A stretch of DNA of 64,000 nt from Promicromonospora sp. Populi (GTDB lineage Bacteria > Actinomycetota > Actinomycetes > Actinomycetales > Cellulomonadaceae): the NCBI RefSeq assembly GCF_041081105.1, contig NZ_CP163528.1:1550001-1614000 (forward strand). Direction: 5' to 3'. Below, in pieces: positions 51,814 to 62,699 of this stretch. Below the pieces are notes generated by a model. That model did not search any database. It had not been told where the DNA came from and worked only from the letters and a program-made list of their open reading frames with translations. Numbering within the stretch: the first letter of the stretch is position 1; every line of letters begins with the position of its first letter. The position numbers were made by a program, and so were the translations under genes.

Positions 51814-51924
51814 CCCCCGGTATCACCGGCAAGCACGGAGCACATCACAAGCAATCCTTCCCTGACCTGCGGAAAGAACCCTAGGGTGCTGTCCGGTTTG
51901 TTCCGGTTCTGTGGAAGGACGACG

Positions 51925-52539
51925 ATGGCTTACCCGAGCGACCACGCCCTGGCGGCGACGGCGGTCGGCGTCCTGGCGGCCCTCTGGTTCGCCTGGACCC
52001 TGCGGCACGCGAGCCCCTGGACGCGGCTCACGCCCGTCGTCGGCCTGGCGCTGGCCGTGGTCGTCGTGATCCTCGGCGCACTGACGGCCGCGAGCGCCTG
52101 GCCCGAGGGCACGGTGGTGACCGGGCGGGTGGTGAGCATCTACGCCGCGGCGCTCGTCGCCCACGGCGTCCTGACGCGGCTGTGCACCGGGCTCATCGCG
52201 AGCCGGTACCGCCACGCGGTGGCGGTGGCCAAGGACGAGGACAAGGCGGGGGTCACCGTCGGCAAGGCGCGGATCCACCTGATCCCGACCGTCGTCTCCG
52301 CCTCCACGGCGATCCAGGTGGGCATCATCGCCAACACCCTGGACGTACCCGTCCTGTACCTGGGCGCCGCCGCCGGGCTCCTCGTCGCGGGGCTGGCGTG
52401 GCCGCTGGGCTGGCTGCTCCGCACGGCCGGCGGCCGGCGGTTCCGGCGCCCGACGGCGGCGCTCGTGCACCCGCTGACCGGGCTGCTGACCGGGGTGACC
52501 CTGCTGTGCACCGCAATCTTTACCTGGGCGGGCCAATGA
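51925..52539 (+). CDS. integral membrane protein of unknown function
   Basis: A 204-residue protein with about five to six predicted membrane helices (roughly 5-25, 32-52, 63-83, 112-135, 140-160 and 180-202). A cytoplasmic loop carries VAVAKDEDKAGVTVGKAR. The MAYPSDHALAATAVG start faintly recalls PAP2 phosphatases (PSDH), but the rest of that motif is not seen, so I give no function. The ATG at 51925 has GGAAGGAC upstream. Confidence 0.75.
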   Translation: MAYPSDHALAATAVGVLAALWFAWTLRHASPWTRLTPVVGLALAVVVVILGALTAASAWPEGTVVTGRVVSIYAAALVAHGVLTRLCTGLIASRYRHAVAVAKDEDKAGVTVGKARIHLIPTVVSASTAIQVGIIANTLDVPVLYLGAAAGLLVAGLAWPLGWLLRTAGGRRFRRPTAALVHPLTGLLTGVTLLCTAIFTWAGQ

Positions 52540-52567
52540 AGTATGGCGCTGTTCCTTCATCTTTTGC

Positions 52568-52596
52568 TTGACACTCGGCAGAAGTCGCCATAGGTT
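52568..52596 (+). promoter_or_regulatory. sigma70-type promoter of the laccase cluster
   Basis: TTGACA at 52568-52573, a 17-bp spacer and TAGGTT at 52591-52596 make a near-ideal promoter, about 190 nt before the laccase ATG. The resulting 5' leader has no gene. It contains a palindrome TGACA-N4-TGTCA at 52697-52710 that could be an operator. Confidence 0.6.
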
Positions 52597-52786
52597 CACA
52601 ACGCCACTTTGTGGTGCACAACACGCATGCGAGCCATCCGAGGTCTTCCCGACATGGGCATTTCCGAACGAGGCGGCCGCATGGGTCATGAGGTCGTGAC
52701 AACGCTGTCAACACCCGCTCCCTCCTGATCCCCTGTCTCGTCGGTACGGCCCGACCCGCCGGCCCGATGGTGTCGAACGGAGACTC

Positions 52787-53842
52787 ATGCCTGAGAACAG
52801 CACTGATGCCCAGACCCTCCCCGGCGGGATGTCCCGCCGCACCGTCCTGACCGGGACCCTCGCCGGGCTCATGGTGCCGGCGGCGGCCTTCTCGCTCGGC
52901 GCCGACACCGCGGCCGCCGTCGCGCCGGGGGCCGTGCGGCCGCTGGCCACCACCCGGCACATCACCATCTACGCGGAGCCGCTCCCCGGCGGCCAGTTCG
53001 GGTACGGCCTCGCCCCCGGCAAGGCCACCATCCCCGGCCCCCTGCTGGAGATGTGGGAGGGCGACACGCTCCAGATCGAGCTGGTGAACAACACCACCAA
53101 GCGCCTGTCGATCCACCCCCACGGCGTCGACTACAAGACCGACTCGGACGGCAGCCCGTTCAACGACTCGTTCAACGAGCCGGGCGAGACCCGTACCTAC
53201 ACCTGGAGCAGCCACAAGCAGACCCAGCTCGACGACGGCCACTGGCGGCCCGGCACCGCGGGCTACTGGCACTACCACGACCACTCGATGGACGGGGAGC
53301 ACGGCACCGTCGGCCTGCGCAAGGGCCTCTACGGCGGGCTGATCGTGCGGCGCCTGGGCGACGTCCTGCCCGACCGCACGTACACCGTCGCGTTCAACGA
53401 CATGTCCATCAACAACAAGGTGGCGCCGGACACCCCGATGTTCGAGGCGAACCTCGGCGAGAAGGTCGAGTTCCTCGCCATCGGGCACGGCGACCAGTTC
53501 CACACGTTCCACCTGCACGCCCACCGCTGGGCGGACAACCGCACCGGCTACCTGACCGGCCCCGACGACCCGAGCCGGGCCATCGACACCCGCGACCTCA
53601 ACCCGGGCGACTCGTTCGGGTTCCAGGTCAAGGCCGGAGAGAAGGTCGGCGCGGGCGCCTGGATGTACCACTGCCACGTCCAGCTCCACTCGGACACCGG
53701 CATGGCCGGCATCTTCCTGGTCCGCAACGCCGACGGCACCATGCCTGCGGGAGCGCAGGAAGCGATCGACCGCTTCCACGAGCACGACCACGCGGCCGTC
53801 AGCACGGGCGAGACCGAGGCAGCCGACCACACCGGTCACTGA
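52787..53842 (+). CDS. Tat-exported two-domain laccase (small multicopper oxidase)
   Basis: A 351-residue secreted multicopper oxidase of the two-domain SLAC/EpoA type. A twin-arginine signal (SRRTVLTG...AAA) leads into domain 1 with H110-P-H112-G and W161-H162-Y-H164-D-H166. Domain 2 has H239..H242-L-H244-A-H246-RWADNRTG, then H295-C296-H297 and M306. Together these supply the type 1, 2 and 3 copper ligands. It oxidises phenolic or other substrates with O2. GGAG precedes the ATG. It is first in a cluster with two secreted proteins, including a cupredoxin, so protein-derived electrons are a possible alternative substrate (inference). Confidence 0.94.
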
Positions 53843-53873
53843 TCGCCACACACTCACGCGCAAAGGAGCAGTG

Positions 53874-56800
53874 ATGGAACGGACAGTAAGAGGCACGACC
53901 CGCGGGGCAGCCGCCTCGCGCAGGACGGCGCGCAGCGCACTCGCAGCAGTCGCAGGCGCCGCCCTCGTCGTCTCGCTGGCGGCAGTCCCGGCGCAGGCCC
54001 AGCGGAGCGCCGTCGTCGACACCGCCCCCGTGGCCGCGGCCGCGGAAGACATCAACGTGCTGGTGTTCCACGGAGCAGCCGCCGACCAGACCGACCCGGT
54101 CACGCTGGCCAGCAAGACCATCCGGGAGCTCGGCGCGGAGCACGGTTTCACCGTGCACACCGCCACCGACCCGCAGGCCTTCACCGCCGAGAACCTCGCG
54201 GACTACCGCGGCGTGGTCTTCCTCTCGGCCGAGGGCGTGGAGCTCACCACGGCGCAGGAGGCGGCGCTCAAGGCGTACGTGCAGGGCGGCGGCGGGTTCC
54301 TCGGGGTCCGCGACGCCGCGCGGGCGCAGGCGCGCTCGCAGTGGTTCACCGGCCTGATCGGCACGCGCCCGGCCGGCAACCTGCCGGACCCGCTGCCGAT
54401 CGCGAGCGCCACCGCGAGCGCGGAGAACCCGCCGAACGAGATCGCCTCGAACCTGATCGACGGCGACTCCGCCACCAAGTGGCTGGCGTTCGAGCCGACG
54501 GCCTGGATCGAGCTGGAGCTGGACGAGCCACTGGTGGCCAGCCGGTACGCGCTCACCTCGGCCAACGACTCCGCCGGCCGCGACCCGCAGGACTTCACGC
54601 TGCAGGGCTCCGCGGACGGCGAGACCTGGACGGACCTGGACGCGCAGACGGGCGTGGAGTTCCCCGACCGGTTCGCCACGCTCGACTACTCGTTCGATAA
54701 CGACGTCGCCTACCAGCACTACCGCCTCGACATCACGGCGAACGCGGGTGACGGCCTCACCCAGCTCGCCGACATCCAGCTCTTCGACGCGAGCGGCGAG
54801 GGCGAGCCCGAACCCGAGATCCCGGTGCAGGAGGCGACGGTCAACGTCCTCGACCCCGCGCACCCGGCCAACGAGGGGCTCCCGCAGAACTGGACCCGCT
54901 CGGACCGCTGGCTCAACTGGGCGCCCAACCCCATCGGCGACGTGCACACCGTCGCGCAGGTGCAGGAGTGGGACTACGACGCCGGCGAGGGCGCGAACGG
55001 CCCGTTCCACCCCATCTCCTGGTGCCGTGACTACGACGGCGGCCGGTCGTTCTACACCGGCATGGGCGGCACCGCCGAGAGCTACGCGGAGGACGAGTTC
55101 CGCGACCACCTGCTGGGCGGGCTGCTCTGGTCGACCGGCATGGTGCGCGGCGACTGCCAGGCGACCATCGCGGCGAACTACGAGACCGAGCGCCTGACCG
55201 ACGTGAACGCCGCCGGCATGCTCGACCAGATGGGTGAGCCGCACGGGCTCACGGTGGCGCCCGACGGCGGCGTCTTCTACATCGGCCGGGGCGCGTGCCC
55301 GACCGGGCCGATCGTCTCCTGGGACGACCCGAACGTCGGCCTGGGCTGCGGCACGATCCACCGCTGGGACCCGGAGGAGGGCGAGACCAACCTCCTGACC
55401 ACCCTCGACGTCATGGGCAACCGGGGCAGCGGCAGCGAGCTGGTCAAGAACGAGGAGGGCCTGCTCGGCATCACCCTCGACCCGCAGTTCGAGGAGAACA
55501 ACTGGATCTACGCCTACTGGATGCCGCACGAGTCGATCGACCGCGAACGCCGGGTCGGTCTGCGGACGGTGTCGCGCTTCACGTACGACGCCGAGGCCGA
55601 CACGATCGACCAGTCCACCCGCGAAGACCTGCTGGAGTGGGAGACGCCGATCCATAGCTGCTGCCACGCGGGCGGCGGCATGGACTTCGACAACGAGGGC
55701 AACCTCTACATCGGGTCGGGTGACAACAACTCCTCTGGCGGTTCGAGCGGCTACTCCGGCAACAACTGGACGCTGGAGTACGCGGGCATCTCGTTCCAGG
55801 ACGCCCGCCGCACGGCCGGTAACACGAACAACCTGAACGGCAAGATCCTGCGGATCCACCCGGAGCCCGACGGCACGTACTCGATCCCCGAGGGCAACCT
55901 GTTCCCAGAGGTGGACGACCCGGGCGACAAGACCCTCCCGGAGATCTACGTCATGGGTGTCCGCAACATCTCGCGGCTGGAGTACGACCTGGAGAACGAC
56001 TGGCTGACGGCGGCCTGGGTGGGGCCCGACGCGGGCCTGCCGAACCCTGAGCTCGGCCCGGCCAAGTACGAGACCGCCACGATCATCACGTCGGCGGGCA
56101 ACCAGGGCTGGCCCTACTGCATGGGTAACGGACAGCCCTACCGCGATCGCAGCAACACCGACGCGTCGGTCCTGACCGGCTGGTACGACTGCGACAACCT
56201 GAAGAACACCTCGCCGCGCAACACCGGCCTGGTCGACCTCCCGCCGGTGCGCGACAACATGATCTGGTACTCGCCGAGCGGCGGCGGCCCGGTCTTCCCC
56301 GTGGGCGAGGACGGCATCCCGTCCTATGCCGACGACGAGGCCACCTACACCCAGCCGTACCTGCGCGGCGGCGGTCAGGCCATCATGAACGGCCCGACCT
56401 ACCACCGGTCCGAGGTCGACACCACCAGCGGCGTCGCGTGGCCGGCGTACTGGGACAACAAGTGGTTCATCGGCGACCAGTCGAACTCCACCAACCGGAT
56501 CGCCGTCACGGTGAACCCGGACACCGTCGAGGAGGCTGGTCCCCCGGTCTTCGCCGAGGACCTGCGCAAGATCATCCAGGGCGGCAGCGGCAACCAGCAG
56601 GTCCAGAGCTGGATGGACGCCAAGTTCGGTCCGGACGGCGCGCTGTACCTCCTCGACTACGCGACCGGCTTCTTCTCCCTGACCGACAACCAGAAGCTCG
56701 TCCGGATCTCGTACACGGGCGGTCCGGCCACGCCGGTAGCGGCCGCATCCGGGGCCAGCGTGCAGAGCAACCCGCTCACCGTCGCCTTCACCGGTGACAG

Positions 56801-57857
56801 CTCGGGCGGCGTCTCCTACGCCTGGGACTTCGGGGACGGGACCACCTCGACCGAGGCCAACCCGCGCCACACCTACAAGCGTGTCGGCGAGTACGCCGCG
56901 ACGCTCACGGTGACCTACGCCGACGGCGAGACGACGACTATCGACGTGCCGGCCGAGACCACGTGCACCATCCCGGACGATCGGAAGAACGTCTGGCTCG
57001 GTACCACCAAGACCAGCGTCGTGAGCGTCGACCTGGGCGGCTGCACCATCAACGACCTCATCAACGACGAGGCAGAGTGGGACACGAACGGCCGGTTCGT
57101 CAACCACGTGACCGCGGTCGCCAAGCAGCTCGTGGCCGACAAGGTCATCACCAAGCTGGCGCAGACGAAGCTGGTCCAGGCCGCGAAGACGTCCGGCATC
57201 GGCGCGGAGGGCAGCACCGGGTACCGGTGGCTGTTCGACGGCACGGCCGAGACGCTGGCCGACTGGCGGCAGGCGCCGGGCGGGAGCTTCGAGCTCCAGC
57301 CCGACGGGTCGATCCTCTCCACCGGCGGGCTGGGCATGCTCTGGTACCCGGGTGAGGAGCTGGGTGACTTCTCGCTCAGGCTCCAGTTCAAGGACTCGTC
57401 GGCCGGGACCGTCCACGCCAACAGCGGCGTCTTCACCCGGTTCCCCGACCCGCGGATCCCGCAGGACGAGCGGCCGGAGTGTGGTCAGCTCACCGACCAG
57501 GAAGCCTGGGTGGCGATCTACTGCGGCCAGGAGATCCAGATCTACGACGGGCCGGCCGGCGAGCCCCAGAAGACGGGATCGGTGTACAACTTCGACCCGA
57601 ACAACCTGGAGCAGGCCGGGGCCACGCCCAAGGGCGAGTGGAGCGACTACGAGATCCAGGTGGTCGGCCAGCAGTACACGATCATCCGCAACGGCGTGGT
57701 CATCAACGAGTTCGAGAACTCGCCGGGCAAGCAGTCCTCGCGCCCGGGAGACCCGCCCACCGACCTGCGCCAGTTCCTCGAGGGGTACATCGGCCTGCAG
57801 AACCACGGCAACGCGGACGCCATGGAGTTCCGCAACATCCGGGTGCGTGACCTGTGA
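53874..57857 (+). CDS. secreted fusion: ThuA / discoidin / PQQ-type sugar dehydrogenase / PKD / DUF1080
   Basis: A 1,327-residue exported protein. A signal peptide (1-43) precedes a ThuA-like glutamine-amidotransferase fold (60-175 and 320-425). This is interrupted by a discoidin (F5/8 type C) carbohydrate-binding domain (about 177-307). Residues 440-950 form a PQQ-dependent glucose/sorbosone-dehydrogenase propeller (GEPHGLTVAPDGGVFYIGRG; LLGITLDP; HAGGGMDFD). A PKD domain follows (957-1029), then an unrecognised module (1031-1108) and a DUF1080 lectin-like hydrolase domain (1115-1327). ThuA and DUF1080 proteins are linked to 3-keto-sugar breakdown, so a sugar-oxidation role is likely. AAAGGAG precedes the ATG at 53874. 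Confidence 0.88.
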   Translation: MERTVRGTTRGAAASRRTARSALAAVAGAALVVSLAAVPAQAQRSAVVDTAPVAAAAEDINVLVFHGAAADQTDPVTLASKTIRELGAEHGFTVHTATDPQAFTAENLADYRGVVFLSAEGVELTTAQEAALKAYVQGGGGFLGVRDAARAQARSQWFTGLIGTRPAGNLPDPLPIASATASAENPPNEIASNLIDGDSATKWLAFEPTAWIELELDEPLVASRYALTSANDSAGRDPQDFTLQGSADGETWTDLDAQTGVEFPDRFATLDYSFDNDVAYQHYRLDITANAGDGLTQLADIQLFDASGEGEPEPEIPVQEATVNVLDPAHPANEGLPQNWTRSDRWLNWAPNPIGDVHTVAQVQEWDYDAGEGANGPFHPISWCRDYDGGRSFYTGMGGTAESYAEDEFRDHLLGGLLWSTGMVRGDCQATIAANYETERLTDVNAAGMLDQMGEPHGLTVAPDGGVFYIGRGACPTGPIVSWDDPNVGLGCGTIHRWDPEEGETNLLTTLDVMGNRGSGSELVKNEEGLLGITLDPQFEENNWIYAYWMPHESIDRERRVGLRTVSRFTYDAEADTIDQSTREDLLEWETPIHSCCHAGGGMDFDNEGNLYIGSGDNNSSGGSSGYSGNNWTLEYAGISFQDARRTAGNTNNLNGKILRIHPEPDGTYSIPEGNLFPEVDDPGDKTLPEIYVMGVRNISRLEYDLENDWLTAAWVGPDAGLPNPELGPAKYETATIITSAGNQGWPYCMGNGQPYRDRSNTDASVLTGWYDCDNLKNTSPRNTGLVDLPPVRDNMIWYSPSGGGPVFPVGEDGIPSYADDEATYTQPYLRGGGQAIMNGPTYHRSEVDTTSGVAWPAYWDNKWFIGDQSNSTNRIAVTVNPDTVEEAGPPVFAEDLRKIIQGGSGNQQVQSWMDAKFGPDGALYLLDYATGFFSLTDNQKLVRISYTGGPATPVAAASGASVQSNPLTVAFTGDSSGGVSYAWDFGDGTTSTEANPRHTYKRVGEYAATLTVTYADGETTTIDVPAETTCTIPDDRKNVWLGTTKTSVVSVDLGGCTINDLINDEAEWDTNGRFVNHVTAVAKQLVADKVITKLAQTKLVQAAKTSGIGAEGSTGYRWLFDGTAETLADWRQAPGGSFELQPDGSILSTGGLGMLWYPGEELGDFSLRLQFKDSSAGTVHANSGVFTRFPDPRIPQDERPECGQLTDQEAWVAIYCGQEIQIYDGPAGEPQKTGSVYNFDPNNLEQAGATPKGEWSDYEIQVVGQQYTIIRNGVVINEFENSPGKQSSRPGDPPTDLRQFLEGYIGLQNHGNADAMEFRNIRVRDL

Positions 57858-57895
57858 CCAGGTCCGCGCAGAGATCTGCGCAGAGAGGAGCCTCC

Positions 57896-59755
57896 GTGTT
57901 CCGACAGAAGCTGTCCCGTGTTCTCGCGGGGCTGGCGGTGAGCGCCTTCGTGGCGGTCCCGCTGGCTCCGGCCACGGCGTCCGCCGTCCAGTACCCGGCA
58001 GCAGTCACGGCGGACCAGGCCGTGGCGGACGTCGCAGCCGACCAGGTGCTGACCTGGACCGCCGACGGCGGCGTCTCGGCGTACAAGTCGGCGCCCGCCA
58101 CGGCGGTCGCCGGGCCGACGACGATCATCTTCGAGAACAGCAGGGCCACGGGCAACACCATCGGGATGTCCCACACCCTGACGTTCGCGACCGACTCGCC
58201 GGGCTACAACTCGGACGTCACCCTCGACATCCTGGCCAACCCCCTGGACGCCAACGGCGGGCGGTACGAGGCCGAGGTCGTCCTGACTCCGGGCACGTAC
58301 CGGTACTTCTGCGCGATCCCGGGCCACAGCACGATGTCCGGGGAGCTCGTCGTCACCGCGGACCCGGGCCCGGACACAACGGCACCGGTAGTGACTGCTG
58401 AGGTCACCGGCCAGCAGGACGCCGACGGCGCCTACATCGGCTCGGCGACCGTGAACCTCGCGGCGGAGGACGACATCTCCGGCGTCGCGAGCATCGAGTA
58501 CTCGGTCGACGGCGGCGCGTACGTGCCGTATTCCGAGCCCGTCGTGTTCGACGAGCCGGGCATGTACATGCTGGAGCACCGGGCCACCGACAACGCGGGC
58601 AACGTCTCGGAGCCCGGGATGGTGCACCTGGTGGTGGTGCCCAGCGACGGGGAGGACACGACGGCCCCCGTCGTGTCCACGGAGGTGACCGGCGACCTGA
58701 ATGCCGACGGCGCCTACCTCGGGTCCGCGACCGTGAACCTCACGGCCACGGACGCCGGTTCGGGCGTGGCGAGCGTCGAGTACGCACTCGACGGCGCCGA
58801 GTACGCGCCCTACACGGATCCGGTCGTCGTCGACACGCTCGGCGAGCACACCGTGACCTACCGGGCCACGGACGTCGCGGGCAACACGTCCACGGAGGGT
58901 TCGGCGACGTTCACCGTCGTCGAACGGCCCGACGAGGACAACACCGCGCCGTCGGTCACCGCCGAGGTCACGGGCGAGCAGGACGCCGACGGCAACTACG
59001 TCGCCGCGGCCACGGTCTCGCTCCTGGCCGAGGACGCCGGCTCGGGCGTGGCGAGCGTCGAGTACAACCTCGACGGCGCCGGCTGGGCGGCCTACACGGC
59101 CGCCCTGGTCATCGAGCTCAACGGCGCCCACACGGTGACCTACCGGGCCACCGACAACGCCGGGAACGTCTCCACGCCCGGCACGGTGAACCTGGTGGTG
59201 GTCGACGGGACGGACCCGCCGGACACGAGCCAGCCGATCACCTCGGCACAGGTCGACGGTGAGCAGGACGACGACGGCAACTACATCGACTCGGCGACGA
59301 TCACCATCAACGCCCGGGACGAGGAGTCGGGGGTGGCATTCATCGAGTACGCCCTGGACTCGGTCATCTTCCGGGAGTACACCGGCCCGATCGAGGTCAC
59401 CGTCGGGGGCGCGCACGCGCTGCAGTACCGGGCGACCGACAACGCCGGGAACGTGACCCGGACGGGCACGCTCAGGTTCTCCGTCTCGCGGGAGGGGATC
59501 GACGCCTGCCCCGTCTCGGACGAGCGGCCGACGGTCATCATGGGGAACGTGGACAGCAAGGTGGCCAACGTCGACACGGGTAACGGGTGCACCATCGCCG
59601 ACCTGATCGACGCGGACGGGCAGTGGTTCAGCCACTGGGCGTTCGTGCGGCACGTGACCCAGATCGCCGACCAGCTCAGGGCGGACGGCGTCATCACCGA
59701 GACGAAGCGCGTCAAGCTGATCAACGTGGCCAAGCGCTCCGACGTCGGGGTGTAG
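57896..59755 (+). CDS. secreted cupredoxin with four Ig-like repeats
   Basis: A 619-residue exported protein. A signal peptide (about 1-35) precedes a plastocyanin-like cupredoxin domain with the complete type 1 copper ligand set H93, C139, H144 and M147 (MSHTL...YFCAIPGHSTM). Four repeats of about 93 residues follow (160-535), each with SGVASVEYxLDG...YxPYT...HTVTYRATDNAGN, the OmpL47-type Ig-like fold. The final 82 residues repeat the module found inside the previous protein. GAGGAG lies 6 nt before the GTG at 57896; a GTG at 57854 overlapping the previous stop is less likely. It probably shuttles electrons between the dehydrogenase and the laccase (inference). Confidence 0.9.
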   Translation: MFRQKLSRVLAGLAVSAFVAVPLAPATASAVQYPAAVTADQAVADVAADQVLTWTADGGVSAYKSAPATAVAGPTTIIFENSRATGNTIGMSHTLTFATDSPGYNSDVTLDILANPLDANGGRYEAEVVLTPGTYRYFCAIPGHSTMSGELVVTADPGPDTTAPVVTAEVTGQQDADGAYIGSATVNLAAEDDISGVASIEYSVDGGAYVPYSEPVVFDEPGMYMLEHRATDNAGNVSEPGMVHLVVVPSDGEDTTAPVVSTEVTGDLNADGAYLGSATVNLTATDAGSGVASVEYALDGAEYAPYTDPVVVDTLGEHTVTYRATDVAGNTSTEGSATFTVVERPDEDNTAPSVTAEVTGEQDADGNYVAAATVSLLAEDAGSGVASVEYNLDGAGWAAYTAALVIELNGAHTVTYRATDNAGNVSTPGTVNLVVVDGTDPPDTSQPITSAQVDGEQDDDGNYIDSATITINARDEESGVAFIEYALDSVIFREYTGPIEVTVGGAHALQYRATDNAGNVTRTGTLRFSVSREGIDACPVSDERPTVIMGNVDSKVANVDTGNGCTIADLIDADGQWFSHWAFVRHVTQIADQLRADGVITETKRVKLINVAKRSDVGV

Positions 59756-59760
59756 CAGAC

Positions 59761-59806
59761 ACAACAAGAGCTCGGGGCACCTTCCGGTGCTCCGAGCTCT
59801 TGTTGT
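59761..59806. terminator. strong bidirectional terminator
   Basis: Arms at 59761-59781 and 59786-59806 are 21 nt with one mismatch and a 4-nt loop. It begins 5 nt after the cupredoxin stop and ends 1 nt before the acnA stop on the other strand, so it closes both transcripts. Confidence 0.8.
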
Positions 59807-59807
59807 A

Positions 59808-62567
<2,760 letters not shown>

Positions 62568-62699
62568 TGTGGCTCCTTCTGCGGGGCTGACGGCGCGTCG
62601 GCTCTCACAGGCGCGGTCGTCGCGCAAAGGAGCCGTCGCATGGGTTCCAGGGGGCTTCACCCAGCCTAGGCCGGGCTGCTGTGGCCAGCATATCGCATT

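Follow-up and report, generated by a model that had tools for sequence, protein, structure and literature searches.

What might a laccase, a sugar-dehydrogenase-like fusion protein, and a blue-copper protein do together when their genes lie side by side? The question is raised by a locus in a 64,000-nt stretch of DNA (hereafter the window), positions 1,550,001 to 1,614,000 of the single-contig 5.22-Mb genome of Promicromonospora sp. Populi. Three genes on the + strand occupy positions 52787 to 59755 of the window and encode a two-domain laccase, a fusion protein built around a GSDH six-bladed propeller, and a cupredoxin protein. An initial annotation, made from the letters of the window, read the set as an extracytoplasmic sugar-oxidation chain ending at O2. 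The analysis below reveals that the three genes are a real, conserved, and co-localized unit, shared by many soil bacteria. We put the probability that this module is an extracellular sugar-oxidation unit, with electrons passing from sugar to propeller, cupredoxin, laccase, and finally O2, at about 0.55.

Co-occurrence of the three genes was scored in 148 genomes of the class Actinomycetes, with cutoffs of E ≤ 1e-180 for the propeller, E ≤ 1e-40 for the laccase, and E ≤ 1e-12 for the cupredoxin. The propeller/fusion was found in 28 genomes, the laccase in 29, and the cupredoxin in 29. The laccase and cupredoxin genome sets are identical; the fusion set is the same minus one genome (G053) and includes no other. 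The co-occurrence profiles, whose comparison had been proposed with the initial annotation, are thus strongly positive. The hypergeometric probability of the fusion-laccase overlap is 2.3e-29, a value that ignores phylogeny. The genes are also close to each other: laccase and propeller matches are separated by no more than 2,251 bases in all 28 genomes, and cupredoxin and propeller matches by no more than 1,653 bases in 27 of them, each gene lying near the end of a separate contig in the remaining one (G171). Twelve further genomes that contain only a more distant GSDH served as an internal control: 11 have neither laccase nor cupredoxin, and the twelfth is G053. Eight of the 39 laccase matches are located more than 20 kb from any fusion. 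Since six of these eight are still within 2.4 kb of a cupredoxin match, the laccase and the cupredoxin are the tighter pair, and the fusion is their usual third partner.

Conservation was also assessed in the surroundings of the fusion. A contig scan for fusion relatives, from which the best 80 of 85 confirmed stretches were kept, yielded 79 loci; 11 of these, sharing only the F5/8C domain, were dropped, and 68 were analyzed. The relatives extend over the entire fusion, apart from a few that contig ends truncate; they are 62 to 87% identical to it in the best segment, the closest ones found are from Promicromonospora, and two loci (L051 and L061) begin inside the fusion. Translated searches at cutoffs of ≥80 bits for the laccase and ≥60 bits for the cupredoxin detected the laccase in 65 of 68 loci and the cupredoxin in 64, so the synteny that the initial annotation had suggested looking for is conserved. 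The order laccase-fusion-cupredoxin on one strand was observed in 33 of the 68 loci. In 18, a cupredoxin gene with its own DUF1080 is located upstream of laccase and fusion; the cupredoxin is upstream on the other strand in 8, the laccase is upstream on the other strand in 3, and both are downstream in 2. Neither partner was found in three loci, and one contains the laccase without the cupredoxin (L070, where only 3.6 kb upstream was available). In one of the three, L051, the contig begins within the fusion. Because the neighborhood survives rearranged gene orders, mere inheritance of a frozen stretch is unlikely to be what keeps the set together.

The laccase of the window is a two-domain multicopper oxidase (Pfam Cu-oxidase_2/3), as originally described; its kinship with small laccases had been missed. 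Its best matches in the PDB are 3t9w (E 5.7e-126) and 3cg8, the SLAC enzyme of Streptomyces coelicolor (E 8.5e-119). The ligand positions (ten His, Cys, and Met), which we take, from the HxH, HxxHxH, and HCH patterns, to bind the type 1, 2, and 3 coppers, are invariant in 61 of 61 aligned sequences (the window and 60 loci). Both this alignment and that of the cupredoxin domains took in only proteins found by the open reading frame (ORF) caller. In one genome (G143), a laccase identical to crystallized SLAC at 298 of 321 aligned residues adjoins a ThuA-GSDH protein of 827 amino acids and a 758–amino acid protein composed of a cupredoxin domain, OmpL47-type repeats, an unnamed domain that we call X, and DUF1080; the Copper-bind score of the latter, 20.1 bits, is just below the Pfam cutoff of 21.2. 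Because a laccase so close to SLAC has the same partners, the three-gene module represents one genomic context in which SLAC-type laccases occur. The laccase of another genome (G107), which scores 529.8 bits against 3cg8, belongs to the same gene set. In all 10 SLAC-type loci examined (nine from genomes of one genus in the 148-genome set and one from a Streptomyces fungicidicus plasmid), the laccase is followed on the opposite strand by ThuA-GSDH, cupredoxin, and DUF1080. Where both ORFs are whole (five of five; L097, L102, L104, L105, and L106), the DUF1080 domain is carried by the cupredoxin protein, and the ThuA-GSDH protein lacks it. Other named Streptomyces among the 68 loci have a fusion of the window’s type. 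Five of the 10 loci (L097, L102, L103, L106, and L130, not L104, L105, L129, L131, or L132) have a LacI regulator no more than ~1.1 kb from the laccase.

SLAC is SCO6712 of S. coelicolor (PMC3918160), and SCO6710, two locus tags away, is listed as a putative glycosyl hydrolase (PMC6414726). We infer that SCO6710 is the cupredoxin-DUF1080 protein. What two-domain multicopper oxidases do physiologically is, according to PMC13151041, poorly understood. No text linking SLAC to its gene neighbors, and no description of a sugar-cupredoxin-laccase chain, was found in the open-access literature searched, a scope that does not establish absence in print.

The fusion protein is arranged as ThuA (split by an F5/8C domain), GSDH propeller, PKD, domain X (~85 amino acids), and DUF1080. 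ThuA, GSDH, and DUF1080/3keto-disac_hyd all exceed their Pfam cutoffs; the earlier description of a ThuA/PQQ-dehydrogenase/DUF1080 fusion therefore stands as to the three families, though it lacked the inserted F5/8C, PKD, and unnamed domains, and its pyrroloquinoline quinone (PQQ) label is in doubt. In Acinetobacter calcoaceticus numbering, the propeller retains the equivalents of sGDH His144 (H599), Arg228-Asn229 (R698-N699), and the calcium-loop Gly-Pro (G718-P719), residues whose roles in sGDH are given in PMC6881810. The catalytic His, the Arg-Asn pair, and the calcium-loop Gly-Pro-Asp are kept in the aligned bacterial and archaeal members of the subfamily. At the Lys377 equivalent, the alignment is gapped. 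Just ahead of the catalytic His, the propeller of the fusion has an adjacent Cys-Cys.

Further relatives of the propeller are encoded on plasmids; 5 of 19 matching records were examined. A Runella plasmid encodes GSDH, PKD, cytochrome c, and CBM6 in one protein. Of two Haladaptatus proteins, one is a ThuA-GSDH-malectin-cupredoxin fusion with an additional, sub-cutoff N-terminal cupredoxin match, and a second has above-cutoff cupredoxin matches flanking GSDH on both sides. A Halocatena plasmid contains a cupredoxin-GSDH protein, and a Natronococcus plasmid a DUF1080-GSDH protein, near whose gene lie those of a TIM-DUF1080 protein and a multicopper oxidase. Because relatives are fused to cytochrome c or to cupredoxins, we argue that this propeller subfamily probably hands electrons to one-electron carriers.

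Sugar-type genes neighbor the fusion in 30 of the 68 loci. They fall into seven groups, named from one or two representatives each: a TIM-barrel isomerase-like protein (27 loci), Gfo/Idh (15), an ABC ATPase (14), a substrate-binding protein (8), ROK (7), a permease (6), and a second TIM type (5). Among the plasmids, three from haloarchaea (L099, L100, and L101) have propellers with a cupredoxin or DUF1080 fused to them; two of these have sugar isomerase genes in the vicinity, and one has sugar-type ABC genes there.

In the chain that we propose, the GSDH propeller would oxidize a hydroxyl of a sugar or glycoside via a quinone-type cofactor held in a remodeled site and would pass the electrons singly to the cupredoxin. 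The cupredoxin would then reduce the T1 copper of the SLAC-type laccase, which would reduce O2 to water. The oxidized product would probably be a 3-keto-glycoside, which the DUF1080 domain would cleave. Further processing would fall to ThuA, joined in a good part of the relatives by a TIM-barrel isomerase-like protein that looks exported and by Gfo/Idh dehydrogenases. The physiological donor of SLAC-type laccases would accordingly be a sugar-fed cupredoxin, not (or not only) phenols. Breakdown of 3-keto glycans in gut bacteria was reportedly the subject of a 2024 study. Oxidation at C3 is expected in part from what is known of ThuA. It is also expected from knowledge of the DUF1080 family (PMC9007349). 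We favor the chain because of the co-occurrence of the three genes, the carrier fusions of the relatives, and the movement of DUF1080 between proteins.

A number of observations weigh against this chain. The first of them concern the cofactor. In sGDH, the PQQ carboxylates are anchored by an RxR pair, which we take to be Arg406 and Arg408 near the C terminus; the fusion has SWMDAKFGPDG there and no such pair. Two canonical paralogs in the host (L088 and L089) contain GRLR shortly ahead of (S/P)DG, and a third (L090) keeps the first Arg only. RxR is absent from this site in all eight subfamily members aligned, including relatives fused to electron carriers; the site was read by eye in an ungapped register from the PDG motif, as MAFFT gaps this stretch. 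Other basic residues might take the place of the pair. Arg408 is named in PMC6881789. The host genome also yielded no PqqC match in a search in which no control genome scored, and no PqqE above the cutoff, which no control genome exceeded either. Forty cluster-bearing genomes from among those of the 68 loci were searched with the PqqC model, which matches above the cutoff in 12; this serves as a positive control for the host PqqC search. Among the 148 sampled genomes, PqqC exceeded the cutoff in two, both of them among the 28 with the fusion (2 of 28). Most of the hosts tested must therefore either import PQQ or rely on another cofactor. Escherichia coli uses environmental PQQ (PMC6881789), so the ability to synthesize it is not strictly defining for PQQ enzymes. 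Loss of PQQ-binding residues had been named at the outset as a finding that would speak against the chain, and the result is divided: the RxR pair has been lost and no PqqC match was seen in the host, while the catalytic His, the Arg-Asn pair, and the calcium loop are kept. We consider the odds that the cofactor is PQQ to be about even.

The remaining points on this side concern the genes and their partnership. The co-occurrence is not corrected for phylogeny, and the 29 genomes belong to 8 genera in 5 families. Laccase and cupredoxin genes also occur with no fusion near them, in G053 and, in the form of a second copy, in G105 and G150; two laccase matches have neither partner near them (G053 C15 and G062 C3). 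Both partners were absent from L053, where 4.8 kb of upstream and 8 kb of downstream sequence was available, and from L060, with 8 kb on both sides. None of the seven groups of sugar-type neighbors is present in 38 of the 68 loci. Contact and electron transfer between the three proteins are predictions. Domain X, which both the fusion and the cupredoxin protein contain, was considered as their private docking domain and rejected. In the cluster loci searched, it was found only on 126 proteins with GSDH, cupredoxin, or DUF1080 domains; genome-wide, it is also present on M14 and S15 peptidases, GH31, BNR-repeat, TIM-barrel, and free-standing DUF1080 proteins. It is part of many secreted actinobacterial enzymes (L116, L117, L118, L120, L122, L126, and L127), with up to 20 matches per genome, and because it is generic in this way, it is no proof of a private complex. 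Overall, the sugar-oxidation chain of the initial annotation is partly supported: it fits the synteny, the co-occurrence, and the carrier fusions, and the lost RxR pair and the host without a PqqC match count against it.

The same gene set could be explained in other ways. The laccase may oxidize phenols in an attack on plant polymers, and the quinones or phenoxy radicals so formed may be reduced by the sugar dehydrogenase; small molecules would then provide the link, and the cupredoxin would have a side role. SLAC does oxidize 2,6-dimethoxyphenol in vitro and reportedly lignin too (PMC7036934 and PMC13151041), and export-type leaders on all three proteins suit such cycling. We nevertheless regard it as unlikely: it leaves unexplained both the exact match of the cupredoxin distribution to that of the laccase and the propeller fusions to cupredoxins or cytochrome c, and according to a 2026 study of another type-B enzyme, lignin polymers are unlikely to be degraded efficiently in vivo (PMC13151041). 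It is improbable, too, that the propeller, like its relative in hedgehog-interacting protein, is a non-redox module for sugar binding or structure in a hydrolytic fusion, with the laccase and the cupredoxin serving an unrelated oxidation. The retention of the catalytic His, Arg-Asn, and calcium-loop Gly-Pro-Asp in bacterial and archaeal members speaks against this, and fusion to cytochrome c or a cupredoxin would be hard to explain.

The two copper proteins, always together in the 148-genome set, could alternatively serve copper handling. In that case the laccase would be a cuprous oxidase, the cupredoxin would bind copper, and the sugar enzymes would be incidental. This we consider very unlikely. 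Among the 906 predicted ORFs of the 68 neighborhoods, there is no P-type ATPase motif (DKTGT) and no CopZ-like motif, and sugar-type regulators and transporters adjoin part of the loci. With the operator consensus of PMC3902906, no CsoR-like site at ≤2 mismatches was found either upstream of the window unit or in the intergenic stretches tested at six SLAC-type loci, four of which have 3-mismatch sites; CsoR-type copper regulation of the unit was therefore rejected. One 2-mismatch site is located inside the fusion coding sequence (57774), and the whole window contains eight such sites.

The sugar-oxidation chain can be extended to a broader proposal, in which a soluble, extracellular wire for sugar respiration would have SLAC-type laccases as its terminal oxidases. 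The propeller would bind PQQ in a manner unlike sGDH or use a non-PQQ cofactor, oxidize glycosides at C3, and feed a dedicated cupredoxin; the keto-glycoside would be cleaved by a DUF1080 domain that hops between partners, and haloarchaea and Bacteroidota would have the version with a fused cupredoxin or cytochrome c. Taken as a whole, this proposal is tentative and, in our view, rather doubtful. Small laccases are much used and have been crystallized, while their role is described as poorly understood; the gene set points to particular partners, a cupredoxin and a sugar-enzyme fusion, and so makes the question of the SLAC role open to simple bench tests in laboratory Streptomyces. If the chain is right, it adds an O2-linked pathway of sugar oxidation located outside the membrane, and also a way to make 3-keto-sugars.

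The coordinates of the unit agree with the earlier claim of three codirectional genes. The laccase ORF (52787 to 53842, + strand) is separated by 31 bases from the ATG of the fusion ORF (53874 to 57857, +; alternative start at 53871). The cupredoxin-protein ORF (57896 to 59755, +) more likely starts at GTG 57896, which has GGAG ahead of it, than at the alternative GTG 57854, which overlaps the fusion stop. Each protein has an export-type leader, as had been claimed: judged by eye, the laccase has a twin-arginine motif (SRRTVL), and the fusion and cupredoxin proteins have Sec-like leaders. In the fusion, hidden Markov model matches place the first half of ThuA at 54054 to 54488 (profile 1 to 142), its end overlapping the F5/8 type C (galactose-binding–like) match at 54408 to 54749, and the second half at 54816 to 55130 (profile 109 to 208). 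The best PDB match of the inserted domain is a domain of a GH92 mannosidase (7nsn). The GSDH domain (PF07995) follows at 55158 to 56714, the PKD domain (Pfam match) at 56727 to 56939, copy 1 of domain X at 56955 to 57212, and the DUF1080/3-keto-disaccharide hydrolase domain (PF06439; 113.9 bits, cutoff 26.8) at 57225 to 57848, all on the + strand. The cupredoxin protein consists of a cupredoxin domain (58136 to 58354, +), four OmpL47-type repeats, and copy 2 of domain X (59495 to 59752, +). Its annotation as a blue-copper protein is borne out by a Copper-bind match (PF00127; 23.1 bits, cutoff 21.2) and by the H-C-H-M ligands of a type 1 site in a plastocyanin-like domain, ligands that are invariant in 64 of 64 aligned domains. 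Domain X, recognized by alignment, has two largely conserved cysteines. Copy 1 has no Pfam match at E 10, and copy 2 has only sub-cutoff matches; a confident model of copy 2 (predicted local distance difference test score, 91.5) gave no Foldseek match in the PDB at E ≤ 0.001, which does not prove a new fold.

A strong hairpin with an unbroken 21-pair stem (59761 to 59806, +) is located between the unit and a convergent aconitase-like gene (59808 to 62660, minus strand), the latter named from its translation and a homologous neighbor in L009 (Pfam Aconitase). The terminator reported there is thus real as a terminator-like structure (fold of 59750 to 59820: −46.5 kcal/mol, z −8.2); it is omitted by the terminator scanner because it has no separate T-run. 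The strong promoter annotated at 52568 to 52596 was not confirmed: a consensus sigma-70–type scan of 52400 to 60000 found none, and the perfect TTGACA at 52568 is followed 17 bases on by TAGGTT (52591 to 52596), a 3/6 match to TATAAT. Directly upstream of the unit is a hydrophobic-looking 217–amino acid ORF (51886 to 52539) without a Pfam match, whose homologs (65 to 74% identity) were seen in seven loci, all Promicromonospora. Further GSDH genes are present in the host genome at 526000 to 540000 and 2570000 to 2582000 (L114 and L115); one adjoins a TIM-barrel protein with domain X, and the other is a ThuA-GSDH with a second GSDH nearby. Laccase pairs adjoining a cupredoxin gene, with no fusion nearby, were observed at L108, L109, and G150:C54.

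Compared with known systems, the window laccase is homologous to SLAC and other small Streptomyces laccases, with the ligands kept, and a near-SLAC laccase is part of the same gene set in G143. The literature excerpts treat SLAC alone, in relation to phenols, dyes, lignin, or electrodes, and name no neighbor as a partner. With soluble PQQ sugar dehydrogenases (sGDH and Asd/YliI) and fungal AA12, the fusion shares the six-bladed propeller, the catalytic His, the Arg-Asn pair, and the calcium loop; in contrast to them, it lacks the RxR anchor, has Cys-Cys ahead of the catalytic His, is fused to ThuA, PKD, and DUF1080, and belongs to a host without a PqqC match. Catabolism of 3-keto-glycosides by LacABC and a DUF1080 hydrolase, as far as described in the excerpts from PMC9007349, likewise combines a secreted dehydrogenase with a DUF1080 protein, and sugar epimerase-like genes are present in part of our loci. 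Here, however, the propeller would replace LacABC, the cupredoxin and laccase would replace the membrane-bound dehydrogenase, the enzymes are fused, and DUF1080 shifts between proteins. A sugar-dehydrogenase propeller coupled to a one-electron carrier is also found in fungal CcPDH (AA8 cytochrome b–AA12; PMC6881789) and in the Runella GSDH-PKD-cytochrome c protein, whereas in the unit described here the cupredoxin carrier is a protein of its own and the oxidase gene adjoins in 28 of 28 sampled fusion genomes.

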